From: Anastrepha obliqua
Lineage: Eukaryota > Arthropoda > Insecta > Diptera > Tephritidae
Assembly: GCF_027943255.1 (NCBI RefSeq)
Contig: NC_072895.1
Span: forward strand, 71,612,001 to 71,676,000
Reading direction: 5' to 3'
DNA length: 64,000 nucleotides
The notes under the pieces were generated by a model, which was not told where the DNA came from, made no database searches, and saw only the letters and a list, made by a program, of their open reading frames with translations. Below, piece after piece: positions 14,096 to 60,703 of the stretch; the first letter of the stretch is position 1, and the number at the start of each line of letters is the position of its first letter. The position numbers and the translations under genes were made by a program.

Positions 14096-15414
14096 CAAAG
14101 TGGCGCAAAAGTAACCTTGCGATGTTTTTTGGCTGTAATTTAAAAAAAAAAATGAAACACTTTGATTCTTCTTGTGGATTATTTTTATTTGGTCTTTTAG
14201 TTTTTTTTTACATCAAGTCGAGAATATGATGTCATGTAAATGGCCGCCGCCACAGTTGATTGCCATTTGAGCCCTTTTTATGGCATTTTCCATCACTTTG
14301 GCCAAAACTTCCGGCGATAGGTCCTCACATTCTTGACGGATATTGTCTTTAAGAGCTGCAAGAGTCTGAGGCTTGTTGACATAAGCCCGCGGCTTCAAAA
14401 AGCCCCACAAAAAGAAGTCTTGAGCGGTCAAATAAGGCGATCTTGGTGGCCAGTGCAAATCGCCAAAACGGGAGATTAGGCGCTCGGGAAATGCATCCTT
14501 CAGCATATCGGTGCTGGCACGTACAATGTGTGCCGTTGCACCGTCCTGTTGGAACCACATGTTTTCCAATCCCAATTCATCAAGTTGCGGCAAAAAGAAC
14601 TCGTTGATCGTTGCTCTGTAGCGCTCACCATTCACAGTAACCGTTTGGCCCCCGACGTCTTCGAAGAAAGAAGGTCCGATGACTCCTCCAGCGAAAACAG
14701 CACACCATACAGTGACTTTGAGCGGGTGTAATGGCTCTTCGTGGGTTACACGCGGATTTTCAGTGCCTCAGAAGCGTAAATTTTGCTTATTTACGTACCC
14801 GCTAAGATGGAAATGGGCCTCATCACTCATGATTGATGAAAAATCATCTTCTTCTTGGTGGTAATTAGGGATGGCTTGAGCGTATGTTAGACGCGATTCG
14901 CGGTTACCAGCTAACAGCTGATGCATCGTCTGGACTTTTTACGGAAACATCTTCAAATCTTGTACCAAAATTCGCTGTAAAGACCGTCGACTGATACCCA
15001 TTTGCGTGGCACGTCGTCTGGTCGATGTCGACGGCGCTTCCATGACATCCTCGGCTACAGCAGCAATATTCTCTGCAGAACGGCTACTCTGGGGTCTGCC
15101 ACACCTGGCAGCATCTCGTGTTGTGCCAGTCTCTTCGAGGCGAGCGGCTAAACGTCGCAGTGTTTCACCAGTAGGCGTTGGACGGCGAGGAAATCTGCGA
15201 CGAAATTCATGTTGTGCCAAAGTCACCGACCGATTATTGGTCAAATAAATAGTCAGCAATATTCCGCGTTCTGGAGCAGTGTAGCGTAACATTGTTTATT
15301 AACGTGTATTTCGCATGTGTTTACTACACAAATGTTAAAACAGAACTGACATTAGGGGCTAATCGCAAAATTTATAGCATTTTCTGTTAGGAGGATTACT
15401 TTAGCGCCACCTGT
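14096..15414 (-). mobile_element. DD41D mariner element, second copy
   Basis: The left terminus (14096-14118, CAAAGTGGCGCAAAAGTAAC) and the reverse complement of the right terminus (15392-15414, ACAGGTGGCGCTAAAGTAAT) are imperfect inverted repeats flanked by TA (14094-14095 and 15415-15416). The length is about 1.3 kb. The termini differ clearly from those of the copies at 402 and 27909, so it is another sub-lineage. The exact end base on the right could be off by a few positions. Confidence 0.85.
14213..15292 (-). pseudogene. DD41D transposase pseudogene
   Basis: The N-terminal part (14939-15292) starts MLRYTAPERGILLTIYLTNN and carries two helix-turn-helix blocks (TPTGETLRRLAARLEETGT, SRSAENIAAVAEDVMEAPST). 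The C-terminal part (14213-14635) has WFQQDGATAH and WPPRSPYLTAQDFFLWG, again 41 residues between the second and third Asp. The middle, read in frame, gives MSDEAHFHLSGYVNKQN with a stop where a Trp is expected nearby, followed by VTVWCAVFAGGVIGPSFFED. Stops near 14938 and 14770 and a deletion before the first Asp inactivate it. Confidence 0.87.
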
Positions 15415-26171: not shown

Positions 26172-27335
26172 CTGTGGGCAAAAAGTAAAGTGAATTTATT
26201 TGTCAAACTTCGCGGGATTAAAATTTCGCTCTAGTTATTTTTTTCATGAGTTGGCAGCACTATTAATAACATCTGGGCCAACTTTCATGTGAATGTTATT
26301 ATCAGTAATATATTTACGCTTGTGTTTACCAAACGACCAAGAGTGCATTTTTTGATTTTTACAATGTCTGATTTGATTGAGCAGAGAAGTGCCATCAAAT
26401 TTTGTTTGCGAAATGAAATTTCGGCTGCGGAAACGTTTAGCATGTTGCAGAAGGCATTTCCCGACTCGACCATGTCGCAGAAAGATGTTTAGAAGTGGTA
26501 CAAAGACTTCAAAGAGGGTCGAGAACGTGTTGATGACTTGGAGCGCTCCGGGCGACCATCGACGTCAACAGATGACCAACACGTCAATAAAGTAAAGGAG
26601 TTAGTGCTCAAAAATCGTCGGTTGACTGTTAAAGACCTTACTGATATGATCGGAATATCAGAAGGATCTGTGAAAACCATTTTGAAAAACCATTTGGGCC
26701 TACGAAAAGTCAAATCTCGTCTGGTACCGAAAACTCTCAATTTCTTGGAAAAAGTCGTCGCGTTGATGTGTGTGAAACAATGCTTTCAGACTATCAGTAC
26801 AAGCTCAAATGCATCATTACGGGAGATGAGACTTGGATTTATGCTTACGACCCTGAAACAACTGACCAATCAAGCGAATATCGTGCTAAGGCGAGGCCAG
26901 ACCGAAAAGAGCACGTGAAAGTCGTTCAAAAATAAAGGTCATGATTTTCGTGGTGTGGTGCATTAGGAATTCCTTCCACCTGGCCAAACTGTTAATAAGG
27001 AATTTTATTTGAGCGTTATGCGTCGTTTACGTGAAGCAATTCGTCTAAAAAGACCAGAATTATGGGCCAACAACTCTTGGTTTTCGCATCACGATAATGC
27101 ACCGTCTCACACTGCACTCGTTCTTCGTGACCATTTCGCCAAAAATGCCACGCATATCGTTCCGCAACCACCGTATTCGCCTGAGTTGGCTCCGTGTGAC
27201 TTCTGGCTATTCCCAAAACTCAAGAGACCACTCCGGGGAACGCGTTTCGAGTCAATACAGTATCCAAATATGAAAACATTAAAAAGCTTAATAATACCAA
27301 AATTTTAGAAGAGCGATTTTTAAAATGTTGAAAGA
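26172..27335 (+). mobile_element. DD34D mariner relic, 3' truncated
   Basis: The left end near 26172 reads CTGTGGGCAAAAAGTAAAGT, a plausible mariner terminus. The transposase reading begins at ATG 26364 (MSDLIEQRSAIKFCLRNEIS). The right end is lost: the protein stops matching after about 27320 and the sequence passes into an inverted LINE remnant. Confidence 0.8.
26364..27308 (+). pseudogene. DD34D mariner transposase pseudogene
   Basis: In order: an N-terminal helix-turn-helix region (MSDLIEQRSAIKFCLRNEIS, WYKDFKEGRERVDDLERSGR), a second one (KNRRLTVKDLTDMIGISEGS), then ITGDETWIY (first Asp, about 26835) and HHDNAPSHTA and PPYSPELAPCDFWLF (second and third Asp, 34 residues between). An in-frame TAG follows QKDV at 26488-26490. 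Frameshifts near 26750 and 26930 break the frame. The C-terminal end is missing. Confidence 0.87.
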
Positions 27336-27908: not shown

Positions 27909-29197
27909 ACGGGTGATCAATCATGAGGTGCTTTTTTCAATAGTTAAAAAAAAACAAAAATGTAAATTATGTTCAAAACCTTTATTTATCATTTGAAAGG
28001 ACATTCTTTGACATTTACTTTTTGAATATGACTTCATTCAAATGTTGGCCGCAACTACGCTTGAGGTGGTCCATTCTGAAGGTCCAATTTTCAATCACTC
28101 GTTCGAGCATTTCGACTGGTATGTCGTGAATAACACGCGTAATGTTGGCTTCCAGAGCTTCAATCGTAGCTGGTTTATCAGCATAGACCTTGGACTTCAC
28201 GAATCCCCAAAGAAAAAAGTCCAAAGGTGTGATATCACAAGATCTTGGTGGCCAACTCACAGGTCCTAAACGTGAAATCAGCTGCTCTCCGAAATGACTT
28301 CTCAATAAAGTCATTGTTTCACGAGCTGTATGGCAAGTGGCTCCGTCTTGTTGAAACCAAATGTCGTAGAGATCATTAGATTCAATTTCAGGTAGCAAAA
28401 AGTCCGATATCATGGTACGGTAGCGAGCACCATTCACAGTTACGTTGCGGCCATCATCATTTTTGAAAAAATATGGACCGATGATTCCACCAGCCCATAA
28501 ACCACACCAGACCGTTGTTTTCTCTGGGTGTAAAGGTAGCTCTTGAACCTGTTCTGGTTGCTCTTCATCCCAAATACGGCAATTTTGCTTGAGCCAGAAA
28601 TGCGCCTCATCGCTGAACAAAATTTTGCTCGAAAACAGCGGATCTTCTTCAATCTTTTCAAGAGCCCAATCAGCAAAACGGTAACGTGCAGGAAGGTCAT
28701 TTGGCTTTAGTTCTTGTACGAGCTGTATTTTGTATGCTTTTAAATGAAAATCCTTCCGTAAAATTGACCAAGTTGTTCCATACGACAGTCCAAGTTGCTG
28801 AGAACGGTGCCGAATCGATTCATCGCGGTTTTCACGTACACTCTCTGCTACTGCCGCTATATTCTCAATGCTTCTTGCTGGACGTGGTCTATTCGGTCGA
28901 GAATTATCCACCAATGAATATTCGGATTCAAATTTGTTGATGGTATGTCGAATAGTGTTTAAGGCAGGCCGATTATGTTGACCATAATGCGGTCTAAGCG
29001 CACGAAAAACATTTGTCACAGAACGCTGATTTTCATAACACAGTTGAACAATTTGTAGACGTTGTTGCGGTGTGAGTCTTTCCATGATGAAATGCCAAAC
29101 GCTGTTCAACAAATCCATGATGACAGTTTGCCACAACTCGCGCGCGATCTGTAAAAAAAACGCAAATGAAAAAAACTCATCTTAATTGATCACCCGT
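27909..29197 (-). mobile_element. DD41D mariner with an open transposase frame
   Basis: The ends are inverted repeats beginning ACGGGTGATCAAT on each strand (27909 inward and the reverse complement from 29197), flanked by TA at 27907-27908 and 29198-29199. The length is 1289 bp, and the single long open frame occupies most of it. It is the best preserved of the DD41D copies in the window. Confidence 0.93.
28015..29085 (-). CDS. DD41D (rosa-like) mariner transposase, uninterrupted
   Basis: The frame encodes 356 residues from the Met of MERLTPQQRLQIVQLCYENQ at 29085; an upstream in-frame Met at 29136 exists, but this start aligns with the usual family N-terminus. The N-terminal half has two helix-turn-helix blocks that bind the termini (NRPALNTIRHTINKFESEY, ARSIENIAAVAESV). 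The catalytic part has FSDEAHFW (first Asp), IWFQQDGATCHTA (second) and WPPRSCDITPLDFFLWG (third), with 41 residues between the last two. These act in cut-and-paste transposition at TA sites in the nucleus. One oddity: the family motif normally reading WLNGYVNKQN is shortened to WLKQN, an in-frame loss of about five residues just after the first Asp. The frame is open, but activity is therefore uncertain. Confidence 0.92.
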   Translation of the reverse strand: MERLTPQQRLQIVQLCYENQRSVTNVFRALRPHYGQHNRPALNTIRHTINKFESEYSLVDNSRPNRPRPARSIENIAAVAESVRENRDESIRHRSQQLGLSYGTTWSILRKDFHLKAYKIQLVQELKPNDLPARYRFADWALEKIEEDPLFSSKILFSDEAHFWLKQNCRIWDEEQPEQVQELPLHPEKTTVWCGLWAGGIIGPYFFKNDDGRNVTVNGARYRTMISDFLLPEIESNDLYDIWFQQDGATCHTARETMTLLRSHFGEQLISRLGPVSWPPRSCDITPLDFFLWGFVKSKVYADKPATIEALEANITRVIHDIPVEMLERVIENWTFRMDHLKRSCGQHLNEVIFKK

Positions 29198-31082: not shown

Positions 31083-31705
31083 ATGCGTTTGTACGTGTTG
31101 TGGCTGCTGACAGCTGCCGCGCTGCTAACGGTAACCACTCGAGCGGCGCACGTGCGAGAAGCGAGCAGTGGCAGCTTGGTTAGCAACTATGCAAATGATC
31201 CGCGACCTGATGCTGTGAACGAGGAAACAAGTGATATTTTGGGCACTGGTGGTGCCTACGAATTTCGTTTACCACAACCGCAGCTAAACAAACAGCAACA
31301 GCATCAACATCAACATAAAACAAAGCGGCCCAACACTACCGCCACTTATGTAACCACAACAAAAACGAGCAGCACCAGCAGCAGTAGCAGCACTAGTAGT
31401 ACTAGCAGCAGTAGCGGTGCCAGCGGTGCCGGCGGTATTGCCAATCACATTTCAACAAAAGGGACTACCACACGCCCGGCCAGCTCCACTACCGCCATAA
31501 GTGGCAACAAAGCTGCCAATGTCACTTCCTCTGTCACGAGGCCTGCATCAACCACTCAACAGTCGGTCTTTGCTTATAATGTATCGATGACACCACAGCA
31601 GCCGCCAATCCATACAGCAGCGCCAGATGTTGCTAATGACGAAACGGCAGTGACCTTCAGCTCTGAGAAGGATGGTGATTCATCAAAGAAAATTATCGGC
31701 TCCAG
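31083..31705 (+). other. Exon 1 coding part: signal peptide and Ser/Thr-rich start
   Basis: The ATG at 31083 has a purine at -3 (AACGATGC), as preferred in flies. The first 21 residues (MRLYVLWLLTAAALLTVTTR and one Ala) form a clear signal peptide. Then come a Gln/His-rich patch (about residues 74-82) and Ser/Thr/Gly runs encoded by AGC/AGT repeats (31360-31430). The exon ends in GGCTCCAG, followed by the donor GTGAGTG. Without splicing, the frame would stop at 31709. Confidence 0.9.
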
Positions 31706-34700
31706 GTGAGTGTGATTCGCGTAATGGAAAAACCCAAATTAATGAGACATTCTTTTCACATTTGCACATTGCTGCTTACCCATCCATTAAGATTTAAAAG
31801 GCTACTCACTCTATTTTCACGCCTACTTAACCGCTACTCGTTTGATGGATTTGTTTTGTATGAATTTTATGTCATACTCTTTACTTACACATCTCTTTTT
31901 TATTTTATTGAAGTGGCACACGTTTTGAGTGTTTTCGGGTCGCCAATATTGAGGTCTTGACCCTACACAATGTGTTTGCAAACGGGGCTTTCCAACCGGG
32001 TTTACTTCTTTAATCAATGCAGTGGAAATAAAACGAAAAATTGTTAGGAGGTAGCGCAGATACCCAAACAATGTCTGCCCAACTAGCCGGGCTGCCCTAA
32101 AGATTCTACAAAATGTTCGCACCATCTCAAAAATTATTTTGGAATGTAAGTTAAAGCTTACTTTCGGCGCAAGGGAAATAAGCTTAAGCTTATGTAGGTA
32201 CCAGGATACTGTGTTGTTCAGTAACGAACTGGCTGCTGAATTGGTGAACAGTTCCCTTCATGGTACCAGAAGCAGTTGTCAGTCTAGGTGTTGCAGGAAT
32301 CGGCTTTTGGATCCGGGACCTCATGTGCAATATAGACATCGATCGGTCGTGCGCTTTCATCACTTGAGTAACAAATAAATGCTTCTTAAAAAGCCGTACT
32401 TAATTCCTTACTCAGCTGAGAAGGACTGTGGTACGATTTATGGTTACATTTATATGAAATACAAGCAATTTGGTCAATTTGGCCACCATAGGATTCATAG
32501 TCAATTAAATGTGTATTTTCTGTGGTAGTGAGAATAACAATACTTTTGTTTGGAAACTCTTGTTTTTGTCCATCATTCGCTAGACTAACTAAGGAGGTGC
32601 GTATTTGAGTATCAAGAATGTGTGAGCTATATTCTTTATACCCCAAAAGATTTATAAGATTTATTTTGAAATCAGAAAAGTTTGAAAAGGTGTTGGCCTT
32701 ATAATATCCACCCTGCCTTAGGCCTTTTAGAATAAGTTCAATGGATATCTCTGCTTAAGTGCTTGAGCTTTTAGTTATATTCTCCGGCTAATTGCTTAAG
32801 ATTGAATTTGAAAATGATCTCTTCAATTTTCTTATATTACTTCAGTAATGAATATACCTTTTATGATTGAATATTCCCACCCGCGAACATTTGTGCTTCT
32901 TTTGGTACTTAACAAACCCTTCTCTTGACAATAGTCGTGCGTTTTTTCTTCCGAGCAGCAATAAAATTTTTTGTTTTTTAGTCAATTTTTTAGTCAAAGA
33001 GATTATCCTGCTTGAATTCTTCAGCCAAGGTAGTCGGCGGAAAAATTCCAATGCATATAAGCATTTAAATTGATTTTGATTGCGTAAAATATGAGTGGGA
33101 GTATAGCACTCAAGTAACAGGAGTTAATTGGTTTCAAAATTTGTTAAATTCCCTCAAACACGAGCCATGTTATTCTGAAGTATAAACGGTTCCGATGTTT
33201 TCCTTACTTAAACCGATGCGTTGTCTATTCACAACGAAACATTCAATGATGAATATATTGACTCGCACGGCCTGTCCCTGCTACCACAATAAAAATTGAA
33301 ATAAGCGATTTTAAAGTTGCCGCCAACGATTCGGTACTTCAGTAAAAATTTATAACAATTTCCTTAAGTTGCTAAACATAATAAAAACTCAAACCTTGAG
33401 TGAAATTTCTTCTTCAAAAACAGAAAATTAGAGCATGTTTGCATTTAAATAAAAAATGTTGTATGCTCCCATTTACAAATTTCCTAAACATCTAAATTCT
33501 TCTTAAACTCCACACAACTCACTTTACGGCACATTTCCACAAAGCTTCTTTAATACTAAATGTAGGCCTTCATGGTGTGCCGTGAAAAATGTTATTCGCT
33601 TGTACTCACAAAAGAGTTAGGCATAAGAAATTCTAAGCAACATGACTGTGCGCTTTTCCATAAAGTAATTAGCGCCTGCTTCGTTTCCCACACTTCCTAT
33701 TTGTTTTTGAATTTCTATTATCACAAAATTTTCCAATTCCTTTATTTTTTTCGCAACAATATTTTTCAGTTCCTTTCTTCAATTATTTTTAATGCCCTTC
33801 TTCTAAGTCAGCTTCTTGAGTACACAACTACATTTCTCACACCCACTTTATCGGTTTACTAAATACTTGGTTGTTGTGGCAACCTTTTGTAATGAATTTA
33901 TTACCTTTTTTGCCATTTGTTTTTGAGTAGCCAACAAAAAAATTTAGGTAGATGAAAAGTAATTGGCAAAAATTTAAGGAAGTTTTTAATAATACAACCT
34001 TATGAAGTTAACAAAATATTTATATTTTAATTAGGGACAAGAATTCTTACAATAGCGTGGGTAGATTAAATTAACTTTAATTTAATTTTACTGCCTTGTT
34101 TGTTGAAGAGAAATTTTATTCATTACTAAAGTCAAAGTGAGTTAGCAAACACCATTGTAAGAAAAATTTAAGTGTTTAGTTTTTATCAATATTAATGGGT
34201 TGTTCGGTTGTTTTTGTTCGTGTTTTTGTACAATCAGTTGAATGTCAAACAGAATAAATATAAATGCTAGCCTAGAAAATGTTAAATATATTTTATCAGT
34301 ATATGATATCACTTAAATCTTAAAGAACCTTGGCTACAGACTCAACTTAGCTTACGGGTAGTCATAAATAATCAGGAGCCTCGTATTCATGCAGACACTA
34401 GATAGAATTTAGAAGGAAGTGACGCTTGAAATAGTTGAATATTTAATTTAAAGATAGGCGTTTATAAGGACTTCGTCGACCTCGCTCTTTAGGGATATGA
34501 TCACAAACAACTAAGAAGATAAACACCTCCCCTGATACTTTAATCGCATTCATCTTTTAGTATTTTTTAAGTATTTCTTAAGATTTCTTTAAGCTTAAGA
34601 GAAGCTATTTATATTTCTATAAATATTAGTATTTTTTACAGACAGGTAAAATTTAAAAAGAGATGAAAAATAAAAAAAAATAGAAAAAATATATTACTTT

Positions 34701-37700
34701 TTTTTAGTAAAAAATGGAAATGACATAAATAACCCAAACAAACTTTCAATTAAAATTAAACATAAATGTATATGTGTATGTGTAGATAGTTGAAAACTAA
34801 AATTGAAAATTGAACAAACACTGATCGGCACTCAAAACACTCATATTTAATGCTGTGCTCATCTTGTACCAATCAAAGTTTGTGTGCATGTATGTGTATG
34901 TTCATTGCATACATAAGCCGCACAATGGCAGCACATTTCTAGCTCGCAGAGTCCAACTATGTGCATGCCTATGATTTAGCAATGGCAGTCCAGGGCACAC
35001 TAAATTCATGAATATGCAAAATGTTTGAGGAAATTACGCTTGTGGTGCCAGCGATCTAATAATAGCATGCACGCGTACACGTATTGGATTTCGCCAAAAG
35101 CGCAGGATTCAGATCAGCACACCAGCAACACAATACACATTTGTGAACAGCGTTGATTACAAACATTTATAGGTATAAACGAAAGTGTCACATGCCATGC
35201 AATAGTCCGTGACTGTGGTTGGACACAAATGGGTAAGGCTGCTATTGAAATTGGAATGATAGCAGGTGTATACAGAAAAGGAGTGGTGTTTGGTAAATTA
35301 AAATCAATGCATGCCAAAAAAGTGCACTTTGGGAAATACACTGACATCAGCTATTGCCGGAGATTAAAAAAGTTTCTGCATCGTCGCTTATGTAGCCAAT
35401 TAAATTGAAGGCACTTTCAGCTTTTCGAAGAATTAGAAGAAATTTTCATCAATGCCATAAATTACTGAGCCAAAAATAAGCCTTAATAAAAATGTATTGA
35501 ATGCATTTCAGACTTTAAGTTAACGATAGAAAAAAATTACACTATTGTTTTCGCGCCTTAAAACTCATTTTCACATCTAATGTATAAAGTTCGTTTTACT
35601 TATTTACTGTTAAATTATACCACACTTTAAATATTCAGCTGATAAGCTATTCCTAACATTGAAACACATTTTCACGTATTTCCTTTTCTGATCTCGCCCT
35701 TAACATTAACTTTAATATCTGAGTTGATAAACTATGACTATTAAGGCTAGTCATAGTACACTTGGACTCCTTTTAGCCAATAAAATGAGTTTTCATAAAC
35801 TTATGAGTTTTCATAACAATTGCTTATTTTAAAATACCCTTTAACCCTTTCATTTTCTGATCTCACTTATAAAATAAGTGAGTGGCTGAGTCTGAGACCA
35901 GTTCATACTTTAAAGTTAATTTTTTTCGTTTGCTCAACTGCGTACAAAAATAAGTTTTCTTGTCAAAATAACTAAAATCAATTTCTTTGTTCGATTGTTT
36001 TCATGTCTGGTAATGCCAAGAAGTAAAGCCTGCTGTTAATTGTCTAGTAATTTTCACTTTACTTCATTTAATAGGCTATAAATGTGCATATAGCCCCGTT
36101 GGCTTTTAAGACAGCGAAAGTGAGTTTATAGAAATATTGAGTTGACTCATAATGCTATTAATGTTTACTTGGTAAAACGGCTCTTAAAGTGATAAAATTA
36201 ACAAAATAAATTGCTTACGAAAATATTTCTAGAAAAATCTAACAAACTATAGCACATTTTTCTGTAGTGCCTTAATAAATATAGCGCAGGAATTAATTGA
36301 AAAGTGTTGACATTTTATATGTATCTTATTGATTTTAATACTTTTTTAATGAAAATATTAAAAAAAAGAAGTTATTAAAAATCCATCAAATTGACTTACT
36401 TCAAACTTGCCAAACGCACGTACCATATAGCCCATTGCATGAAACTCGAGATTTTGAGATTTTTAGCAACATTTGTTGATTTATGTTTTTATTTGCTCAA
36501 AGCTTGAAAATTGTATTTATATGTTTTTGGAAGAGAATTAACTGTAAAAATTCATTAAAAACAAAGAAATTATTAAAAATATGAAGCAAACAAATTGTCA
36601 GAACTCATGAATAAGCTCCTGTACTATATGAAGTACTGTACTTAACTCTCAAATTCTCGAAAAGGTGAATTAAAACATTTTAAGAAATTAAAAAAACTTG
36701 TTTAGACAAGTTTTATCATAAAATAGAATATAATTGCGTATAAATTTTACTTAAACGGGAAGACTATTTTTTAATAATAAAACAAAACAAAACACTCTTT
36801 TCATTGCAAAGAAATTTGAGAACCACCATTTTTGAATGAAATTTATCAGCTAAGATCAAATGCAGCTCCAATTCGAAAAGACCAACCAAAAAATGGGAAT
36901 TTTTTATTCTAAGCATTTGAGTGGTAACTGTTATGAAATTGCAATCAAATTCAATAACTTAAAAATCAGCCAACAGCTGTTAGTTTATGCTTAAATATTC
37001 CATGCTTCATAACTTGCAACCCTAACAATTTGTTATCTCAGTTCAGTTCATAAAAAAATATGCAGATAGCTCATAAATTGTATGTCCGCACATAGCCATT
37101 GCCAAATACTTGTATGCATTTCAGAGTACGAGTAATTGCAGCAACATAAAGTGCGTCAAACCTGTCAAATAATTCAATAAAAATCATTTTTTGTAACATT
37201 GATAGTAAAAGTATATAACATGATGTTTTCACTCATACATACAAGCAGTTACGTTTATGCCACGAAGTGAATGCTCCTGCATTTGTTTTCCTTCTGCTTT
37301 GCTTTTGCATTGGATGTTATCCAAACGAACATGGATGGGGATGCGTGCCTTACGAAGTCAATGTGATTGTGTGTGGTGATGCAGCAGTATTTACTATTTG
37401 TAGCTTTTAAATTGCCACTTATACGAAAATTGGTAGTGATGCAGTACGCTTAAAGTATGCAATGATATGCAATGTGAAATCACTTAAAACGGGATAACAG
37501 TTGAGCAATGAACAGGGTGAATCATTGGTACATATTGAAAACTGAATATATAGGGCCATTAGCATGTAAAATTTTCTTTTTGAATCGGCTATAAAAAAAA
37601 AAACTAATCAATATCTTTTGAAACTTTTTTTTCATCTTGAAGATTGAACATTGTCATTTATGAATAAAAAATAATATCGTTCAAAGGACTGCCACGACTG

Positions 37701-40700
37701 GCTTTACAGTAGGCCCTTCGATCAACCCAATTTTTAAGCACATTTTCGATTGTTTGGGCTCCAATTTCATGAATGGCAACTTCGATTTCGTGTTTTAAAG
37801 CATCGATCGTATCTGGATGGTTCGCATAGCATTTGCCCTTAACGGCTCCCCACAAAAAGTAGTCCAACGGGCTTAAATCACAGCTCCGAGGCGGCCAATT
37901 GATATCGGAATTCGAAAACGGTAGCCAAAAGTTGGAGTGTAACTTTGGCAGTGTGACAAGTTGCACCGTCCTGTTGAAACCAAATGTCGTCCATGTCATC
38001 CTCTTTAATTTTTGGAAACAAAAACTCGTTGAGCATGTCATGGTAACGCTCACCATTTACTGTAACCGCGGAAGAATAAGAAGACTCACCACTTTGAAAA
38101 TAGGTTTTCAATATTTCCCAATTTTATTCAAGCGTATAGCGTCCCATTTCGTAAATGTCAAACCTTTAAGCAAATTATGAATACATTTGACATGTCATTT
38201 GTGTTACCATTCTCAAAAAAATAGGTGGTTCAAAAAGCAAACGCTATATGGCCCACCCTGTATTTAGTAATACTAGAAGTCATGTGCACTGTTTAATTGA
38301 ATCTAAGTGCTAAATTATCGAAATGCTCCCAGCAGTTATTTTATCTGAATTTCCATAAAACTCTCAACGTTTACTGATGAATAAATTTCTTCCGAATGCA
38401 ATTAATAATAATAATTTTTGATAATATATTTATTTAATACGCTTACCTTTTCTTTTCGCTACCCTTACAGCGTGGTAACCTCCGTTTCGGTAATACTCAA
38501 TGGTGATGAGCCAGAATTCACTGATGCCCTTGGCCACAAAGTGCCGAAGCCGCAGCCATCTCTTCAAGTAGCCAGCCCCATCGATCTTCTCAACCCTGAT
38601 CGCTATGAATTCTACACATTCGATGAGAATGGTGAGCTGGTGAAACGCCTTATGACAATGGAAGAAATACAGAGTATTGTGGCAAACGGGGATGGTGAAA
38701 ACTCATCCATTATACAGCATGTGCCCATAGATGATCGTGAACCGGAAAAGAATGTCCAAGACATAGTTGATAGTGTGCAGAATGTTTTGAATAAGGAAGT
38801 GGAATCGAACAAGAATATATCTAAAGATGCACTGCCTATTTTGGATACACCCGATGTGTCCTCATCATGGTCAATGATTTTACCGGCGATTTTTGGTAAT
38901 GGCGGCGGCAGTGATATTTTCCCACAACAGAAACCCCAACAAATCGTCATGACACCAGACTCAGAATTGCTTGAGACCTCAACGAGTGTAGTGTCCAACA
39001 CGCATGCCACGAAACGTCCGAAGCCGAACAAACGTAAGCCAGGTCAAAAACGTAAGCCAACTACACCGGCGCCCACGACTACATCCACAGCAATCACACC
39101 ACAAGTTGTACAAGAGGAATTAGATCCTCATGAGTCTGTCTATACCGGAATGCAACAGTATCAAAATGTGGCTGCAAATATGCAACACTTTGACGGCTTC
39201 TCGCAGCTTCAAATGCAACCTATCTATCACAAGCTACCCGAATATACACAAATGGACACCACCACACGACGTGTTTTCGTCAACAACCAAGAAATAATAC
39301 AAAGTGTAGCTACAGTACGCCCCATAGTGGCAGAAGATAAGGTCGAATTGGAAGAAAGCTATGGCAAGAGGCCACCTGTGGTCGTGCACAAGCGTCCAGT
39401 GGCACCGCATCGTCATAAGACGCCGAACGGCGGTGGGGGTTCAAGTACGACCAAGAAGCCAGTAGGTGCGCACAATAAGCAGAAGATAAAGAAGAAGCCG
39501 TCTACAACGACAACAACAACAACACCGGTACCGACCACCACCTCAACTACGACAACAACCACTACACCTGAGCCGACCACCACAGCATCTACCACTACAA
39601 CAACTACAACTACCACAACAACTACAACTACACCAGCACCTACCACAACAACAACCACTACAACAACACCAGCGCCCACAACTACGACACCTGCACCCAC
39701 TACAACAACCACGACCACACAGAAGCCAACCGCACCTAAAAAGAAAAAGAAGAAGCCGACACGTCAGCCAGTACCAGGCACTGGCAAACCACATCCAGCT
39801 GGTGAGAAACGTAAACCAGCTACTGGCAAGCCACGCCCTACTAGTGTTACCCAGCACAACGCACACAAGCACCAACAAGCCGGCAATGGAGAGCATACTG
39901 GCGACAAGCATCATCCAGCCGCCGACGTGCCCGAGCCCGCACCCACGACCATCGAGCCAGCAATCAGTAAACACAATAACACGCTGAGCCACAAACCGAA
40001 TAGAACGCGCCCACGTCCACACAAAAAACCAATTCCCTCAACTACTACCACTACAACCACCACACCAGTACCAACAACAACCACAACTTCAACTACTACT
40101 ACAACAACAACGACTACTCCAGCGCCCACTACCACTACAACGACTACAACAACAAAAGCACCTACCACCACTACAAGTACAGAAAATACATTGGTCGTAG
40201 AACATTTCCCAGGTTATCATCCAATACACGTCAAACCTTCACATGCCAATAAGCGTCCTGGTGTATCCGTTTATCCAGTGCCCGACTACAAACCCGAAGC
40301 GCTTGAAGCGCAAGAGGCCGCTGTTGAGTCCGACACTGCTGATTATGGGCAATTCAAGCGTAAACCTTTACCATCACTTGCACAAATTCAGCAGCAGCAC
40401 CACAAACCGGCTGACAAACCAATATTATTAGAAGATCAAAACACACTGTCTTCATTCGATCAAATTATGGAGTCTCTTAAAGAGGAGCTGACGCACAAGA
40501 CGGAAACAGATATAAATGAGTCAAGCGCTTCCGAAACGCGACCTGTGACGGACACACCTTTGGAGGCACCAATAACTGAAGCACCATTATTCGCGTCCGT
40601 CGATAGTAGCTCAGTCGCACATTCAGGTGCAAACGTAGAGCAAGCAGAAAACATAGCAATACACCCGCAATTCGCCAATACTATGAGGCCACCAACCGTG

Positions 40701-43700
40701 GTGGCAACAGCTGAAGAGGCAACGAAGAAAACTACTACACAGGCTATATTAGATAATGATGCAAGTCAAGAGCAGATCGAGCAGGAGATATCGGATAGCA
40801 CAAATATTTCAGAGTATTCAATCGAGGAAAAAGAACCTATTGAAAGGGAACCAGGTACCGTGGACAATCTTGAAAACCAGGAAACTGATAAGAATGGTGG
40901 AGATTTGTCACATGTCGTTAAATTTGAACCACTTTACGCTGATGTTCAGGAACCAATTGTTACGGAAGTAACAACAGTTTCGTCCCTCGTTGAAGATGAC
41001 ACAACTGTAGTGGAAGTGATCGATGAAGTGGACGTGCAAACGGTACATTCTAGTACGCCATTAGCAGGAGGCAGTAGCACTGAATACCACGCACCACCAA
41101 TAATGCATTCGCCAGTTACACAGAAGGTTGCGGCTATGATTGCAGAAGATAGTTCATCTACAGAACCGCCGCCACAGGTAGCGGATCTAAAGCCACACTT
41201 GAACATGGATATACTTAAACCGATGGATCAAATAAACATGTCTGACTTCCAAACGCAGGCGGCCACAGTGGCTTCGACGCTGGTGGATGGCACAAACACA
41301 ATTGCTTCCGATCCACTCATGAATACCAACGAGACGCGCAGTGAAATTGATTTTCTGATGTCCGATGTTATACAACAAATAACTGGGCAAAAAATTGATT
41401 CAGATCGGCCTGATCCCATAGAAGATGGCAACCGATTAACGAACTTTGCGCAATTAAACTCATCCTTCTTGCTAAAACCATCTCAGTCAGCGATGGAACA
41501 AAGTAATGTAGACGACAGTTTACCGGCTTATGGAGGCATAACAATTACTAGTAGTGCAACAATTCCATCCCCTGCTAAAGTGTCTGCGGAAGTGGTTAGT
41601 GTAAAACCGATGTTGGTACCAACCCCAGAACCACTCAGCGAGGCAGAATATGAACAGACAACTGAGATCGACACTACAACAGAATATACTGAGACATATA
41701 CTCCACAAGAAGATGTTAAAATAGAGGCGGAGAAAACGGATGGCAAACTAGATAGTACAGAAAACCTCGAGAAGGAACACAAGGCTGAACTATCAATGGA
41801 AAACACAGAAAAAGAGGAGACTGAGCATGCGCCTGAAATACAACAAGAAATACTCGATAAGAATGAAGCGGAATATAGTGACCAAACACAACTCGATGCT
41901 TCCGAGAAATACGAAGTAGAACAAAACGTGCCAACACAAGCGAACAGTATCGAAAAGGAAGAAATGGAACATAACACGCAAAAACAAGACATAGTGGAAC
42001 ATAAAACTGAGCTTCAACCGGAGAGTTCCGAAAAATACAAAGTGGGAGATAAGCCTTTAATACAAATTGTTAGTCCAGAAGAAGACAAAGTTGTGGCGCC
42101 TATATCGGAAGAAGTTGCGCAAGAAACCACCACAGTGGAAGTTCTAATACCATCTTTGTCACATATTTATGAAACACAACAACAAGAATTCGGAGATAAA
42201 GAAGCCTTATATAGTGCAGAGAAGGGAAAAGAGCCTACCCAATCCGACGTAACTCAAACACAACAAAGTAATATGTCTTCGGAGCCACTTAATGAATCAG
42301 AGACAATTTTAATGGAAGAGCAGATGAGTGCCGAAGGAAGTAACGAAGAGAAGAAAGAAGAAATGACAAGTGCCGAAGTGATTATTACGGAAATAGAGAA
42401 GACGAATGAAACAGAAATGGAAAAGCCTAGCAAACAGAACGGTAGTGGGGAAAACCCTTCGCAAGCGGAATTTTCTGAAACTACGGAAGAATTTACTGCA
42501 CAAACTGAGACCAATTTAATGGATGAAGTAACAGAAAAATTTATGACTGAGAAGGAAAAACCCACTGAGGAACAGAGCTCGGCTGAGGCACTTGAAGAAA
42601 CTACTAGTGAAGTGGAGGTAGATAATAAACTCGAAATACAGGCAATGCAATCTACAGAGGTGCCCAATGAAACTAAAGAAACACAGACAAATCATTCAAA
42701 GGAAGAAGTAGAGGATCAAGCAAATCTTCAAAACGAAAGTATTGAAGAAGATGCCAGTGAGTCGAATAAAAGTGACACAGTAGAGGCTGTTAGTCTTGCA
42801 AGTGAAAATAATTTTAGCGAAAAAGATGCCAGTGAAAAAGGGCCGACCGAAAGTTTCACAAATGAAACCACTAAAACAGACTCAGAAGACACTAATGAAA
42901 AAGAAAGCAAAGAGAAAGAGTCCTTAGAAAAGGATCAAACCAGCGATCACATTGTCACAATCTCTGCGGATATTAACGATATTGTTGCTGAGGAAACCAA
43001 TTATTCTGTAACAAAACCAGATTCCACGGAATCATACGACAGTTCAACAGAAAAAGAAACTACTGCTATGGAAGAAGATAATGTGACGAATGATGCAAAT
43101 TTGCAACTTCAACACACCAAAGTACCAACAACAGAAAAGTACGTAACAACTGAAGAAGAAGAAGCAAGCAGTGAAGCAATTGAAATTGAAGTGACAACAA
43201 ACCAGTCAGTCGATCAAAGTATTACATCTGAAAAGGTTACGTCAGCAGATGAGAATGAAGATGCAGAACCAGAAGCTGCTACAGATGTTACCATTATGAT
43301 TTCAGATGAGATAGATAGTACGGAATCTGATGAAGATCCTTACATTAAACTTGGGGAGTCTACCACAAAATACCCTGTAAAGCCAATTAAGGAAGATGAT
43401 AATGGTATGGATGCAGAAGAAGACTCATCAAGTGCTGAAGAAACCGACATTGAGGTTACAGCGCCAACCTTACCACAGGTAATACAGTTAGCTGTGTCGG
43501 AACCGACGGTGCAGGATAGAGAGCAGGTCAACGAAGAGTCCGCAGAGGAGACAGAGCCGCCAAAATCTGCCGAAGTGGCACCACCAAAATTAGCTGACGG
43601 AGAGAGTGGAGTGACGATGGAAGTCATTACAACCAAACCAGAAATTGAAGAAAATACATCCCAGGAGGCGGAATTGCCTGAAACCACTGAACATATACCA

Positions 43701-45620
43701 ATCGAACAAACAAGCAAACCTATTCAAACATCTGTTACCCAACAACGCCCGCAAATATCACAACTCAACTACAACTACCGTCCTGATCCACAAAATCCGC
43801 TGGATGCAGGCGACCAAACCACTTATATCATACCGAAATTCCCCACAATTCCAGTTCTCGCTGCATTATCAACACCCATGGGCGGTGTGGCTTCTTCCAC
43901 ATCCACCAGTTCCACCACTTCGACTTCCACTACTACTACAACTACAACTTCTACCCCCAAACCCACACCCACAACCACAAAGCGCGTACACACGCTGAAA
44001 CCCGTCTCGTACTATAATAAACAATCTGGCATAAATGCGGCAAAACCAGCCGAACCCACTAAAATTATACCCTACGCAGCCAGTACTACCCAGCAGCGTC
44101 CTATGCAGCGACCAGCACAACTGAACAACTTGATGGCCACCTCCACACAGGCAACTCGGCCACCAGTTAAAATGGAACCCAGTCCTTCCAACTCGAAGGG
44201 ACTCGAAGCATCTATAACCAACTTAGACGAAGATCTGCAATCCTTTGTCAAACTCTGCAATGAATTGGCATTTAGTTATTGGAAGTCCATTACATCGGAA
44301 AAGATTAGTTCTGCACGCAGTTTGGTGGTATCACCATTTGCGCTAACCTCGATGCTTTCAATGGTTTTCCTGGGTGCACGTGGCAGCACATCTGGCGAAA
44401 TGAATGAAGTACTCAAATTGGATGACATGGTCACCTTCAATCCACATTTAGTTTTCAGAAATATTACCGATTCAGTGGAACATGCCACTGATAGCGACAT
44501 TGCGACAACAGCATTCGTGCGCGAGATATTCAGTGATCGCGCAAATGGCAAAATACTGCAATTCTTCAAGGAGAAGACCCAACAATTCTATTCGGGCCAT
44601 GTAGAGGAAGTGAATTTCCATGTGGTCAACGATGTAATACGTCGCCGTACAAATTTGCTCGTTAAACGCCATACAATGGGCAAAGTGTTGGAATATTTAC
44701 GCACAAATAGTCTTTGGGTTAACGGACCGCTGGCGACCATTTCTGCTAATCTTTTCCAAACAGACTGCAAACGCGGCTCTACACAATTGACAGATGGCGA
44801 AATGTTCTTCCAAGTGCATCCATCGGTGCGGCAACGTCGTCTAATACCTATTCCTGCTGTTTTGTACAAGAGCGGTTTCACCGCTGGCTATGAGCCCAAT
44901 TTGGATTCAACAATTGTAGCATTCGGCAGCATTCAAGATACCGTAAGCATAGTTTATGTTATGCCCGGCCATCAGAGCACACTTTCGCCAGCAGAGAGTT
45001 TGGAGCGACTTGAGCGTGAGCTTGTGGAACAGGCCTTTAGCAAGAATGCTTGGAGTAAAATACTCACCTCGTTGATGGACCGTCCAGGCATGGAGGTGCA
45101 ACTGCCACGTTTCTCGCATAGATCTTTCGTAAATGCTTCACTAGGCTTACAGAAAATGGGGCTGAAAGGACTTTTTAAGTCAGATTACGCCGATTTGCGT
45201 GGCCTTACTGGCTCTTCCAATCGTGACATTTATCTCTCCGATGTCATACAAATCAATACCTTCAGCACTTGTGGTGAGGAGAAGATTGCTGATCATCATC
45301 ACGTGGAAATGTATCCAGCACCACCGCTGCGTAAACGGAACAAAGACCTCGGAGCTAATGACGATGGTGCCTACGATTCATCCGAAGCTGTTATCGATTT
45401 CGGCTCGCTGGTACATGACTCTGCGCTGGGACGTGGATTCTATGACGATTTACTAGATCCCAAATATCTTGAGCTGCCACTATCGTTGCGACCACGACAA
45501 GCACGCGTACCCGATGCGCCACGACTACGTTTCGACAAACCATTCCTGTATTTTGTGCGCCACAACCCAACCGGTATTATACTCTTCATGGGACGATTCA
45601 ACCCACGACTACTGCCATGA
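31083..45620 (+). CDS. Giant secreted mucin-like protein with C-terminal serpin domain (two exons)
   Basis: The coding sequence joins 31083-31705 to 38471-45620, giving 2590 residues. The phase-2 junction makes a Ser codon (AG+C), and both splice sites fit (CCAG|GTGAGT and TTACAG|C). The order is: signal peptide (about 1-21, hydrophobic LWLLTAAALLTV, ending TRA/AHV); Ser/Thr-rich stretch (about 90-180); basic Thr/Pro tracts (about 552-626 and 731-779) typical of O-glycosylated mucins; an acidic Glu/Ser/Thr region (about 975-1950); a third Ser/Thr tract (about 2019-2046); and a serpin domain (about 2126-2590). The serpin has SLVVSPFALTSMLSMVFLGA, TNSLWVNG, VYVMPG and the C-terminal signature FDKPFLYFV. 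The hinge lacks the small-residue run needed for loop insertion, and the loop is expanded. A long non-inhibitory fly serpin such as Drosophila Spn100A might be the relative, but this was not verified. Role unknown; extracellular location inferred. Confidence 0.93.
37551..38260 (-). mobile_element. Internally deleted DD41D mariner relic in the intron
   Basis: The right end (reverse complement of 38234-38260) begins CAGGGTGGGCCATATAGCGT and is followed by TA. The left end near 37551 (TAGGGCCATTAGCATG) is a decayed version with a short deletion. Only the C-terminal half of the transposase remains, so the first catalytic region and the DNA-binding region are gone. Confidence 0.78.
37661..38100 (-). 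pseudogene. DD41D transposase C-terminal fragment
   Basis: Two overlapping minus-strand frames give VTVNGERYHDMLNEFLFPKI and IWFQQDGATCHTAKVTLQLL, then, after a frameshift near 37920, INWPPRSCDLSPLDYFLWG, KGKCYANHPDTIDALKHEIE and a C-terminus ending SPLNDIIFYS. The second and third catalytic Asp motifs are present but out of frame with each other. The N-terminal half is absent. Confidence 0.83.
39500..40185 (+). repeat. Coding ACN (Thr) repeat tracts
   Basis: Two stretches (39500-39726 and 40040-40185) consist mostly of ACA/ACT/ACC triplets with regular CCA-GCR-CC interruptions, giving PAPTTTT-type units. The mixed synonymous Thr codons mean the DNA is not a pure microsatellite. Antisense open frames across this stretch (poly-Val) are shadows. 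Confidence 0.88.
44222..45617 (+). other. Serpin domain (about residues 2126-2590)
   Basis: The domain begins LDEDLQSFVKLCNELAFSYW and ends GRFNPRLLP. Helix B/strand 6B (SPFALTSMLSMVFLGARGST), the breach/shutter-type SLWVNG, strand s3C-like PIPAVLYKSGFTAGY and the s4B/s5B signature (LRFDKPFLYFV, TGIILFMGRFNP) are all present. The domain is about 465 residues, against about 370-400 for a usual serpin; most of the extra length lies between strand 5A (QINTFSTCG) and the signature, the position of the reactive loop. That segment is rich in charged residues and holds a basic KRNK site. Confidence 0.9.
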
Positions 45621-46774: not shown

Positions 46775-49700
46775 TGAGTCCGCGAAAAATGTGTGGTGAA
46801 CGGCCTCTAAAAAGTTTCCGTCGTAGTAGTCGCAATAGGGACTGTCGTCGCAGTTAAACCTATATAAATGTGCTTTGAATCATCCATGACCACTCAAAAA
46901 CAGGGTTAGGTAGAAATCCACTTCTCCATGTGGCCTCTCAGCCAAAGCTTTAGAATGCATTTGTGCGTCCAACGCCCTTTTGGAGAGTTATCCCCACCTT
47001 GTTTGCCACTCATCGATGCAATTCTCTCGTAACGCCGCACTAGTAGATGAGCTTATAGGCGTCTGTGTTCTCGCTATTTGGACAGCTTCTATTGCTAATA
47101 TGTCTAGCGGATGCATGCCAGATATTACTAAGGCTACATCTTCGGACACCGGTAGGTAGACTGTAGACCTCGAAAGTATGATACATGATTCGTTTTATTC
47201 ATCCAAATTGGTCCACCATACAAACTTTGGCTTTTCACGACATTAGCCAGAAATTGACGCCGATTTTGTTTTGATCCTCGTACATTTAACATCGTATTCG
47301 AATGTGCTTTGAAAGACAGCTTTTTATCTATCATTATTCCCAAGTATTTGATTGCGGGAACGGTCGATATGTTGAAGTCTCCGAATCTAAAAGAGGCTTC
47401 TGTTTTTTTTTCGACTAAATATAAGGACTGCTTCGGTCTTTTGTTACTCTAATTCTAGATTATTTTGTGCTAGCCACGATTGCACACTTAGAACCGCATG
47501 AATTGCGTTGTTGCGGATATCGCCAATATTTTTAGCCATTACAACAAGGGCAATGTCGTCGGCAAAGCCTATTATCTTAGTTCTCTCTTGAATCCTGACA
47601 CGTAGAATACCGTCGTACATTATATTCCACAGCAATGCCTCAAGAACCGAGCGCTATGGAACGCCACTTGTTATTTTACTTTTTTCGTGCTTTTGATGTA
47701 CTGTACAATAGAATTCGGCCATCAAAGTAACTGCGTAATATTCTCGTCAGGTGTATACAGAGTCCAATTCACTCTATTGCTTCTTAAATTTTCGCCAAGT
47801 AGAGTTAAATACATTAAATGCAATCAGGCAGTACTCTGTGGTACCATTTAGCCAACGGATACCGCTGATTGCATTCGTTGCAACCTGGATTGCTGAAGAG
47901 AGCGCATTTGGCGTTGACTTCGCCTTTCTAAATCCGAATCGATTTTCAGATAGGCTCCCCTTTGGTCTGACTTCCGCATCTAGTTGATCGTATAAGATTC
48001 GTTCGAGCACTTTACCGAGCACAGAGTCGATTAGACATACTGGTATGTATCAGGACGGCTCCTCCGCTGATTTACTTGGTTTTGGAAGCAAAATTAAATT
48101 TTGGCGTTTCCAAATTGTCGGAAAGGTTCCCTCCGAAGGGTAGTTATTAAACAAGTTGCTGAACACTTTGGTTCGTTGCATGATCGCCAGCTTCAAACAT
48201 TTACTTGGCACTCCGTCTCGACCAGGAGCTTTTGAGTATGTTAAACTGCTTTTAGCCCTTAATACTTTATCTTCTGTAATGAAATCGCATTCCCAGGTAT
48301 TAAAGTTCCCAGGAATAAGGAATTTATTCCTTCTCTCGGCGTCGATGACCATCTTCAAAACCAGCCTCCGTGTAGGGGTCAATCGGAGCGCTAGATGGTA
48401 TATAGGCACTATAGATATATAAGTAGGTCGTTTACTTTGGCGCAAATAAATCCCATTTCTCTAAACTCGTAAGTCTAGCGTTTTTCTGGCTTTTGCAGTA
48501 CCAGATAGCTGATTTTCCGCTAGTGTCTTGCAACCAGTATGATGTATTTGACTTTTAAGCTCGCGGAGTACCGCTACGTCGACTTTCAACTTCAACACGG
48601 TTTGATTTCGGTGGACTTGAGCAGCTTCGCAATGATTTAAGTTGAGCTGTAAAACTCTCATGGTTTTCTAAGGGCCACAGAAGTTGTTTGGGTGCCACCG
48701 TATGCTTTACGCAATGATCGAATGTTAGATGGGTCTAGGTTAACATTAGTTAGGAGGTCATTAAAGGCTAGACAGATTTGAGCTAAGCGAGACATCTGAG
48801 GCAAATACCTCAGAAGTTTAGAGGTATTTGCCCCAGATGTCTCGCTTAGTTGAAATAGCAAATCTCCATGAGCCATTTTCGGATTCTTTGTACCATCGAA
48901 CTTATGCCTTTTAGAGGCTCTACATTTTTCACAATTTTAATAATATCTGCATACGAAAGATCCCCCCTGATTGCTTAACAAGTATGGCGTGGGGTCATGT
49001 AGGCTTCCATTACGAACGCTTCTGCTTCACGACTTTTGTCCATTCTCCTGCCTGACTGGTCGCAAGGCCTTTAACTTATGCTGGATCAGCATTGCTCGGG
49101 AAAAAATTTGGAGAAGTTTTCTTATTGGTTCTGCGATCTTATTGGTAGCTCGATCGCTCTCAGTTAGCGGCATAGCTGTTTTCGCCTTATCATTCACAAC
49201 GGTCAATGCTTGTTTGCTTGTGTAGCTTTGGTCACCGTTATTTTGGTTCTGTTTGCTGTTGTGTCTTTACTCTCAACTACGTTGGAGAGCTCACATATGT
49301 CTGAGAGCATGCTCTTCATTTGCTGATTGACATGCCGTTGCCCGTCCATCATCTTTTTTAGTTATTCGAGTTTCTACACATTGTTTTGAGTGCTTAATTG
49401 TATCCCCGATAATAGATCCCTGCCGATTGGCTAGTATGAGTGGGTGTTGGGCTCAAAACTTCCACTTTGCTATAGCATGTGACTTCAGCATTGGTGTCGA
49501 TCTCATTGACAGTAGCCGGTTGACCGTTGCCAGGATTTGATTGGTCACGCACCGGAGATCGTAGGGTGAGTACACTTTTTCTAAAAGGGCACGCGGGAGC
49601 CAATGGGAATGAGGACAATTGGCGTTGTTCCTGTGAATGAATGGCAGACCGAAAGCCTGTTGTCTTATTATTCAACACATCGAGTGAGAGATCCGTAATC

Positions 49701-54458: not shown

Positions 54459-55732
54459 GGACTATGAATAAGTTCGTGCGGTTTTTTTCGAAATTTGAAA
54501 CTTTATTGACGTAAAATGGTTACAAATTTAATATTCAAAGTATTGTCCATCGCTTACTACTACTTTTTCCCATCTTTCTGGCAATTCACGGATTCCCTTT
54601 GTGAAAAATTCGGTCGGTTTTGCCGGAATCCACGAATCGATCCATTTTTTGACTTCATCGTAATTACGGAAGTGCTGGTCAGCCAGGCCATGTTGCATCG
54701 ATCGGAAGAGATAGTAATCGGATGGCGCAAGGTCTGGACTATACGGCGGGTGGGGTAGGACATCCCATTTGAGCGTTTCTAAGTATGTTTTGACCACTTG
54801 TGCAACATGTGGCCGAGCATTGTCATGTTGCAAAATAACTTTGTCGTGTCTATCGGCGTATTGCGGCCGTTTTTCTCGCAGTGCTCGGCTCAAACGCATC
54901 AATTGTCGTCGGTAGACATCCCCCGTAATCGTTTCATTCGGTTTCAGTAGCTCATAATACACAACACCCAGCTGGTCCCACCAGATACACAGCATAACCT
55001 TCAGGCCATGAATATTCTGGGCCGACGTCGATGTTGAAGCATGGCCAGGGTATCCATACGTTGCCCGACGTTTTGGATTGTCGTAATGGACCCACTTTTC
55101 ATCGCCAGTCACAATTCGATGCAAAAAACCCTTTCTTTTGTGCCGTTGAAGCAGTTGTTCGCATGCCATAAAACGGCGTTCAACGTCTCTTGGCTTCAAT
55201 TCATACGGCACCCAATGGCCTACCTTTCGGATCATTCCCATGGCTTTTAAACGTTTGGAAATGGTTGATTGATCAACTCCCAAAGTTTTTGCAACCTCTT
55301 CTTGCGTTTGAGCCGGATCTTGATCGAGCAATTCCTCCAATTCGGTATCCATGAACTTTGGCGGCGCACCCTCGCGTTCTTCGTCTTCCAAGCCAAAATC
55401 ACCACTTTTAAAGCGTCCACTTCTGGCACGTTCGCTCAGCTAGAGCATGCTCACCATAAACTTCCACCAAGATACGATGACTTTCGGCTGCTTTTTTCTT
55501 CATATTAAAATAATGAAGAAGAATTCCCCGCAAAAACACATTATTTGGCACGAAATTCGACATTTTCAAGTGTGGTAAAAATATTGTTGTTTACGCTTCA
55601 AATAAAAAACTTATACTGACGTTTGTGCCTTACGACAGTAGCTCTCCAATGAATGTTTGGAAATGTGGATCGATGGAATAATAATCAAGTTACGCCATCT
55701 GTTGTAAAACCGCACGAACTTATTCATAGTCC
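54459..55732 (-). mobile_element. DD34D mariner, complete ends, nested in the TTAA element
   Basis: The termini are perfect inverted repeats starting GGACTATGAATAAGTTCGTG and continuing CGGTTTT, flanked by TA at 54457-54458 and 55733-55734. The length is 1274 bp. A near-identical copy lies in the opposite orientation at 59509-60653. Confidence 0.95.
54528..55563 (-). pseudogene. DD34D mariner transposase with a 5 bp frameshift deletion
   Basis: The reading starts at the ATG complementary to 55563 (MSNFVPNNVF, as in the copy at 59678). It is broken near 55418, where five bases (TTTGC, relative to the 59.8 kb copy) are missing between CAGAAGTGG and ACGCTTTAAA. From 55391 down the frame is open to 54528 and covers the rest of the protein: TGDEKWVHYDNPKRR, WWDQLGVVYYE, LQHDNARPHVA, PPYSPDLAPSDYYLF and the proper C-terminus LPERWEKVV...GQYFEY. 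The second to third Asp spacing is 34 residues. One small indel is the only evident lesion. Confidence 0.93.
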
Positions 55733-59508: not shown

Positions 59509-60653
59509 GGACTATGTTTAAGTTCGTGCGGTTTTACAACAGATGGCGTAACTTGATTATTATTCCATCGATCCACATTTCCAAACATTCATTGGAGAGC
59601 TACTGTCGTAAGGCACAAACGTCAGTATAAGTTTTTTATTTGAAGCGTAAACAACAATATTTTTACCACACTTGAAAATGTCGAATTTCGTGCCAAATAA
59701 TGTGTTTTTGCGGGGAATTCTTCTTCATTATTTTAATATGAAGAAAAAAGCAGCCGAAAGTCATCGTATCTTGGTGGAAGTTTATGGTGAGCATGCTCTA
59801 GCTGAGCGAACGTGCCAGAAGTGGTTTGCACGCTTTAAAAGTGGTGATTTTGGCTTGGAAGACGAAGAACGCGAGGGTGCGCCGCCAAAGTTCATGGATA
59901 CCGAATTGGAGGAATTGCTCGATCAAGATCCGGCTCAAACGCAAGAAGAGGTTGCAAAAACTTTGGGAGTTGATCAATCAACCATTTCCAAACGTTTAAA
60001 AGCCATGGGAATGATCCGAAAGGTAGGCCATTGGGTGCCGTATGAATTGAAGCCAAGAGACGTTGAACGCCGTTTTATGGCATGCGAACAACTGCTTCAA
60101 CGGCACAAAAGAAAGGGTTTTTTGCATCGAATTGTGACTGGCGATGAAAAGTGGGTCCATTACGACAATCCAAAACGTCGGGCAACGTATGGATACCCTG
60201 GCCATGCTTCAACATCGACGTCGGCGCAGAATATTCATGGCCTGAAGGTTATGCTGTGTATCTGGTGGGACCAGCTGGGTGTTGTGTATTATGAGCTACT
60301 GAAACCGAATGAAACGATTACGGGGGATGTCTACCGACGACAATTGATGCGTTTGAGCCGAGCACTGCGAGAAAAACGGCCGCAATACGCCGATAGACAC
60401 GACAAAGTTATTTTGCAACATGACAATGCTCGGCCACATGTTGCACAAGTGGTCAAAACATACTTAGAAACGCTCAAATGGGATGTCCTACCCCACCCGC
60501 CGTATAGTCCAGACCTTGCGCCATCCGATTACTATCTCTTCCGATCGATGCAACATGGCCTGGCTGACCAGCACTTCCGTAATTACGATGAAGTCAAAAA
60601 ATGGATCGATTCGTGGATTGCGGCAAAACCGACCGAATTTTTCACAAAGGGAA
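59509..60653 (+). mobile_element. DD34D mariner, intact left end, 3' truncated
   Basis: The left end reads GGACTATGTTTAAGTTCGTG after TA at 59507-59508. From there it follows the complete copy at 54459-55732 almost base for base. The match stops at about 60653, inside the transposase C-terminus, where SINE-related sequence begins, so the right terminus is lost. Confidence 0.92.
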
Positions 60654-60703
60654 AAAGTGCGCAGGTTTCAATCTCCGTGCAGGAAACATCAAACACCAAA
60701 TGA
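59678..60703 (+). pseudogene. DD34D mariner transposase with a foreign C-terminus
   Basis: The start is the ATG at 59678 (MSNFVPNNVFLRGILLHYFN), matching mariner N-termini. The frame is open across both helix-turn-helix regions (AERTCQKWFARFKSGDFGLE, VAKTLGVDQSTISKRLKAMG) and all three catalytic motifs (TGDEKWVHYDN, LQHDNARPHVA, SPDLAPSDYYLF; 34 residues between the last two). After FFTKG (about 60652) the last 17 residues (KSAQVSISVQETSNTK) come from SINE-derived DNA and replace the usual LPERWEKVV end. The protein could still be made, but the element cannot move itself with only one terminus. Where it overlaps the other copy, one residue difference was noticed (Ala for Pro in WIDSWI-A/P-AKP). 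Confidence 0.9.

Follow-up and report, generated by a model that had tools for sequence, protein, structure and literature searches.

The analysed stretch of DNA (the window) comprises 64,000 nucleotides of Anastrepha obliqua, positions 71,612,001 to 71,676,000 of contig NC_072895.1. On its forward strand, at 31083..45620, it contains a gene predicted to encode a protein of 2590 residues, in which a long mucin-like stalk precedes a C-terminal serpin (hereafter the mucin-serpin). Exon 1 (31083..31705) carries the start codon, a signal-like sequence, and a Ser/Thr-rich stretch, and its 3' end is adjoined by GTGAGT. The GT..AG intron (31706..38470) is followed by exon 2 (38471..45620), which has TTACAG directly at its 5' side and carries a conserved N-terminal block, the mucin-like and acidic regions, the serpin, and the stop codon. 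The preliminary description had joined both exons in phase to one frame of 2590 residues, and this was borne out, as the terminal stop is the only one in the join and the annotated protein of Eurosta is also 2590 residues long. Both proteins have the same exon 1 start and the same exon junction, and the motif KKIIG[ST]SVVTSVSV spans the junction in their comparison. Exon 1 is identical to that of Eurosta at 86 of 100 positions in residues 1-100 and at 39 of 89 aligned positions in residues 101-200; the serpin is 95-97% identical to that of Ceratitis and 91-92% to that of Eurosta. All residues after 208, including the mucin region and the serpin, are encoded by one unbroken exon, so that splicing matters for exon 1 only.

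The protein starts with the signal-like sequence (residues 1-21, 31083-31145), a hydrophobic start judged by hydrophobicity only, and continues with the Ser/Thr-rich stretch and the conserved N-terminal block (residues 208-351, 38471..38900). The block is about 140 residues long, begins at the exon 2 boundary and has the pattern SVSV..PDRYEFYTF..VQNVL..DTPDVS..SWS.ILP. Thr/Pro-rich mucin-like tracts with tandem repeats follow (residues 401-860, 39048..40427; Thr 25.9%, Pro 13.3%), then a mixed region, a Glu-rich acidic region with a net charge of about -127 (residues 1321-2000, 41808..43847), a second Thr/Pro stretch, and finally the serpin with an extended reactive loop (residues 2123-2590, numbered here as domain 1-468, 44214..45617). 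In Pfam, Serpin (5.9e-41) is the sole family in exon 2 at E<=1, while exon 1 gave two sub-threshold matches, neither of them chitin-binding nor VWD. No chitin-binding domain was found in exon 1 or 2 at E<=1, and the protein does not belong to the chitin-binding class of cuticle or peritrophic matrix proteins. Nor is it a gel-forming (VWD) mucin, since exon 2 matched Serpin only at E<=1 and there is no cysteine outside the serpin; the whole protein has three, all within that domain. A long Ser/Thr/Pro-rich region after the signal peptide, the latter taken from the hydrophobicity proxy, places it among mucin-like proteins. No anchor was found: the chain stops a few residues past the serpin, and after residue 40 hydrophobicity is strongest in a stretch within the serpin. 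The protein is probably secreted, extracellular, and heavily O-glycosylated. The N-terminal block had no Pfam family at E<=1 in the window protein and three relatives; its segment PDRYEFYTFxExGxLVKRLMT is conserved across insects, and the block is possibly a domain that has no name yet.

When the serpin end was used as the search region, with proteins limited to about 1310-4170 residues, 295 proteins were obtained, and the best 120 of these were examined. Long proteins are guaranteed by the length filter, and the N-terminal block therefore serves as the test of the fusion. The motif DRYEFYTF, with at most two substitutions, was present in 114 of the 120, DTPDVS in 105, and SWS[LM]ILP in 107, and 108 proteins have the C-terminal ending NPRLLP; 25 rows were aligned for the block. 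Ser and Thr together make up 24.5% of the part before the serpin in the window and a median of 26.1% (21.4-33.4%) in the 120 relatives. The signal proxy is weak: of the 117 relatives that start with Met, 74 have a hydrophobic 12-mer within residues 1-70. The named long relatives include flies, beetles, moths, a caddisfly, a lacewing, aphids, a planthopper, a whitefly, stick insects, and a katydid, and searches with shorter queries add Hymenoptera, a termite, and a mayfly. There was no non-insect protein among the named matches listed in the length-filtered searches (best 120 of 295, best 120 of 142, and 27 of 27). As judged from these searches, the fusion is old and occurs across insects. The preliminary description had proposed to check whether orthologues in other flies have long mucin regions; such regions occur in flies and in other insects, and the serpin is normally joined to a stalk. 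The preliminary description also proposed an undescribed system. This holds in so far as no description of the fusion or its relatives was recognised in open-licence literature, but databases contain many predictions of the protein, under names such as mucin-2, mucin-5AC, serine-rich adhesin, or serpin domain-containing protein, and many of these entries misleadingly say mucin.

The two parts of the protein differ in conservation. Between Drosophila teissieri and D. grimshawi the serpin is 90.6% identical and the rest 56.1%, and between the window and Musca the values are 88.8% and 44.2%. By its sequence, the stalk is mucin-like and acidic, long and fast-evolving, and is much less conserved than the serpin core. 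Core scores of 16 fly serpins in D. melanogaster and D. grimshawi range from 41 to 80% (Garrett 2009, Table 2, PMC2770083), and against these the 90.6%, although a different measure from a different species pair, makes the mucin-serpin core appear to be among the most constrained in flies. A term search of the main text of that paper gave no occurrence of "mucin". As the core is so much better conserved than the stalk, and seemingly also than those 16 cores, insects probably depend on it.

Membership of the serpin superfamily is supported by the sequence profile and by the fold, the latter from an AlphaFold2 (AF2) model compared in Foldseek and VIA-align. The model was computed from alignment A2, which consists of the window protein and 77 of 257 retrieved proteins chosen by us for spread (78 rows). 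A model from alignment A1 (74 rows, many of them fragments) had a predicted local distance difference test (pLDDT) score of 49.2 and was discarded. In the model used, most of the core has pLDDT above 85, while the loop 372-415 is below 50. Function was not read from the Foldseek and VIA-align ranks, which do not separate serpin subfamilies and do not count against families outside the listed rows.

The hinge that inhibitory serpins use for loop insertion was not recognised. The Garrett hinge consensus, a pattern uncalibrated on known inhibitors, is absent from the window protein and occurs in 0 of the 257 retrieved proteins. A looser search (up to three mismatches, last 200 residues) matched 17 of the 257, none at the hinge position: 14 matches sit 23-24 residues before the Cys353 motif, two are in low-complexity inserts of the loop, and the last one (P0148) is in a Ser/Thr-rich sequence where no Cys anchor was found. 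With the consensus in none of the proteins, the mucin-serpin is probably non-inhibitory, and the sequence argues strongly for this.

Two cysteines are invariant in all 78 rows of A2, namely Cys185 of the domain (residue 2307, 44766..44768) and Cys353 (residue 2475, 45270..45272) at the top of strand s5A. A third one, Cys15, is kept in 71 of the 78 rows. Cys185 occupies the position of the breach tryptophan, Trp194, which is near-invariant in inhibitory serpins; the column is W in SERPINB1 and PAI-2, and the tryptophan expected of an inhibitor is thus missing here. The model places the end of s3A at 183 and the s5A strand at 341-351, each stopping two residues before its cysteine. In native serpins these two strands run side by side and parallel at the breach, which makes a Cys185-Cys353 disulfide plausible. 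Such a bond, moderately supported by the model and the invariance, would probably staple the breach shut.

The reactive loop is long and has conserved ends. It starts with the motif HHxExYP (domain 362-368, 45297..45317), in which H362 is kept in 74, H363 in 77, E365 in 78, and P368 in 77 of the 78 rows. The motif RPRQAR (domain 426-431, 45489..45506) lies near the canonical P1. From Cys353 to R431 there are 79 residues in the window and 26-105 (median 74) in A2, compared with about 19 from the equivalent position in ordinary serpins. The 257 proteins include fragments; 237 have a complete loop and the other 20 were dropped from the loop counts. As raw counts without a chance expectation, R-x-x-R is present in 235 of the 237 loops and RPRQAR in 231. 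The six loops without RPRQAR are P0134, P0140, P0141, P0171, P0241, and P0253, and four of them keep R-x-x-R as RFTR in Cotesia, RTER in Prorops, RATR in Habropoda (RATRRKRS), and RSGR in the plant bug Nesidiocoris, the first three being hymenopterans. If cleaved PDB chains start at P1', P1 corresponds to domain residue 432 (9pai_B, 1ezx_B), 434 (1hle_B), or 428 (8zcr_B). R431 falls among these positions, although the register found most often makes it P2. A further basic motif, RQRR (domain 206-209, 44829..44840), has R206 in 74, Q207 in 72, R208 in 77, and R209 in 71 of the 78 rows, and its block 201-210 is modelled with lower confidence (mean pLDDT 64). The window protein thus has all three characters of an insect mucin-serpin family: Cys185/Cys353, the R-x-x-R of the loop, and the N-terminal block.

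In the reading that we prefer, with a probability of about 55%, the serpin is locked and non-inhibitory, sits on a secreted mucin stalk, and has a long loop that contacts a conserved partner and may be processed at R-x-x-R. The conserved N-terminal block of about 140 residues and the long mucin-like and acidic stalk would carry the serpin at the C-terminus. Its hinge for insertion into sheet A would be missing, and the cysteines at s3A and s5A would staple the breach. The long loop, anchored by CGE..HHxExYP and LPLxLRPRQARxP, would likely be the surface that binds the partner. A proprotein convertase or a trypsin-like protease might cut R-x-x-R and convert the serpin to a two-chain module. The signal-like start and the mucin composition suggest an apical or pericellular matrix as the likely setting. 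We also considered whether this would be a new serpin mechanism, in which a serpin stapled by a disulfide and carried on a mucin stalk uses its long loop as a conserved proteolytic switch. In that case, a cut at R-x-x-R by a convertase or trypsin-like enzyme would expose or release a binding site in the insect extracellular matrix, and the metastable insertion energy would never be used; so specific a proposal is tentative and rather unlikely as a whole.

Several points weigh against the preferred reading. The relatives are not independent and the counts therefore overstate the conservation, A2 was hand-picked, and many sequences are fragments; the uncalibrated hinge pattern and the raw loop counts belong here as well. 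Two of the 237 loops, P0171 (RPRQAH) and P0253, have no R-x-x-R. In the register of PAI-1 and alpha-1-antitrypsin R431 is P2, not P1, and it is followed by V/I/L-Pro, which is a poor P1'-P2' for furin. RPRQAR could also be a binding motif that is never cut.

The same arginine motif is what would speak for a true inhibitor. The preliminary description had suggested that the serpin may act as a tethered or matrix-embedded module, and in this form it would be held in the matrix as an inhibitor, with RPRQAR as the bait for a trypsin-like or furin-type protease. The motif at or beside the canonical P1 is strongly conserved and the serpin fold is intact in the model, but the hinge consensus is missing from all 257 proteins, the span from Cys353 to R431 is far from that of ordinary serpins, and a Cys185-Cys353 disulfide, if formed, would keep the loop from inserting. 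A tethered inhibitor is therefore unlikely, and with no anchor found either, this part of the description was not supported. Similarly improbable is a carrier, in which the serpin would bind a small molecule, a hormone, or a metal (through HHxE) and its release would change on cutting of the loop, on the model of hormone-binding globulins or the biliverdin serpin of tree frogs; the fold match would fit any serpin. More improbable still is an extracellular or endoplasmic reticulum (ER) chaperone of matrix assembly, comparable to Hsp47 for collagen. Hsp47 is among the top Foldseek rows and the serpin core is highly conserved, but the ranks are generic to serpins and the NPRLLP ending of the long relatives is no C-terminal ER retention signal. 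That two genes were wrongly joined in the gene model is hardly credible: short models are known (Ceratitis, 485 residues; D. sechellia, 540 residues), but the D. sechellia model begins within the mucin region of its relatives, the N-terminal block and the serpin are in the same protein in nearly all long relatives examined, and the mucin region and serpin share one unbroken exon in the window.

The window also contains putative mobile elements. Two copies of a Mos1-type mariner transposase at 54528-55439 (minus strand) and 59651-60703 (plus strand) are, by eye, nearly identical over the stretch that they share; Pfam Transposase_1 was identified in both and HTH_48 in the second. At 28015-29181 on the minus strand, 1.9 kb upstream of exon 1, a frame of 388 residues has a DUF4817 helix-turn-helix match and, by eye, a transposase-like body, and is possibly an intact transposable element. 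Broken transposase-like frames were recognised by eye at 808-1479, 14213-15295, and 37658-38056 on the minus strand and at 26493-27308 on the plus strand; in Pfam, two of these four have helix-turn-helix matches below the cutoff and two have none. The mariner-like fragment at 37658-38056, one without a Pfam match, lies within the intron of the mucin-serpin gene, just before exon 2. Fragments at 47134-48460 (minus strand) resemble by eye the reverse transcriptase of a non-long-terminal-repeat (non-LTR) retrotransposon, and their piece 48053-48460 has no Pfam match. No transfer RNA (tRNA) gene and no Rfam match were found in the window (1-64000), and no other host protein-coding gene was recognised among the open reading frames listed for it, where short exons could be missed. 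The gene thus seems to stand alone among transposons.

Among known serpins, Hsp47, ovalbumin, OVAX, and the biliverdin-binding serpin have the same fold as the mucin-serpin in Foldseek and VIA-align and are non-inhibitory; none of them is known to have a mucin stalk or a loop insertion of 60 residues. Serpin-8 of Nilaparvata lugens (P0127) is a direct relative, with 55% identity over the serpin. It is a partial sequence in a catalogue of immune genes, and the passages on it discuss neither a mucin region nor a function (PMC3616906). Human C1-inhibitor (SERPING1) resembles the mucin-serpin in having a glycosylated N-terminal extension before the serpin, of about 100 residues and with most of its 10 N- and 24 O-glycan sites, and no orthology is claimed. 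Its extension is about 20 times shorter, and it is an active inhibitor even without the N-terminal 97 residues (PMC11498661). Drosophila Necrotic (Spn43Ac) has an unstructured N-terminal extension conserved in presence but not in sequence. It differs in that the extension has 69-145 residues, the protein is counted as inhibitory and is active in vitro, and the core reaches only 41% between D. melanogaster and D. grimshawi (PMC2770083). The mucin-serpin has neither the inhibitory hinge consensus nor the short N-terminal extension of a Necrotic orthologue. For the non-inhibitory fly serpins Spn85F, Spn31A, and Spn43Ab, sections 7 and 10 of the same paper describe no mucin stalk, and their cores reach 67-77% between D. 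melanogaster and D. grimshawi, compared by another measure with 90.6% between D. teissieri and D. grimshawi here. They have no hinge and a very conserved loop, which the authors read as binding a conserved partner (PMC2770083). A natural serpin with its moving part apparently locked and its loop enlarged would uncouple the fold from the mechanism of inhibition.
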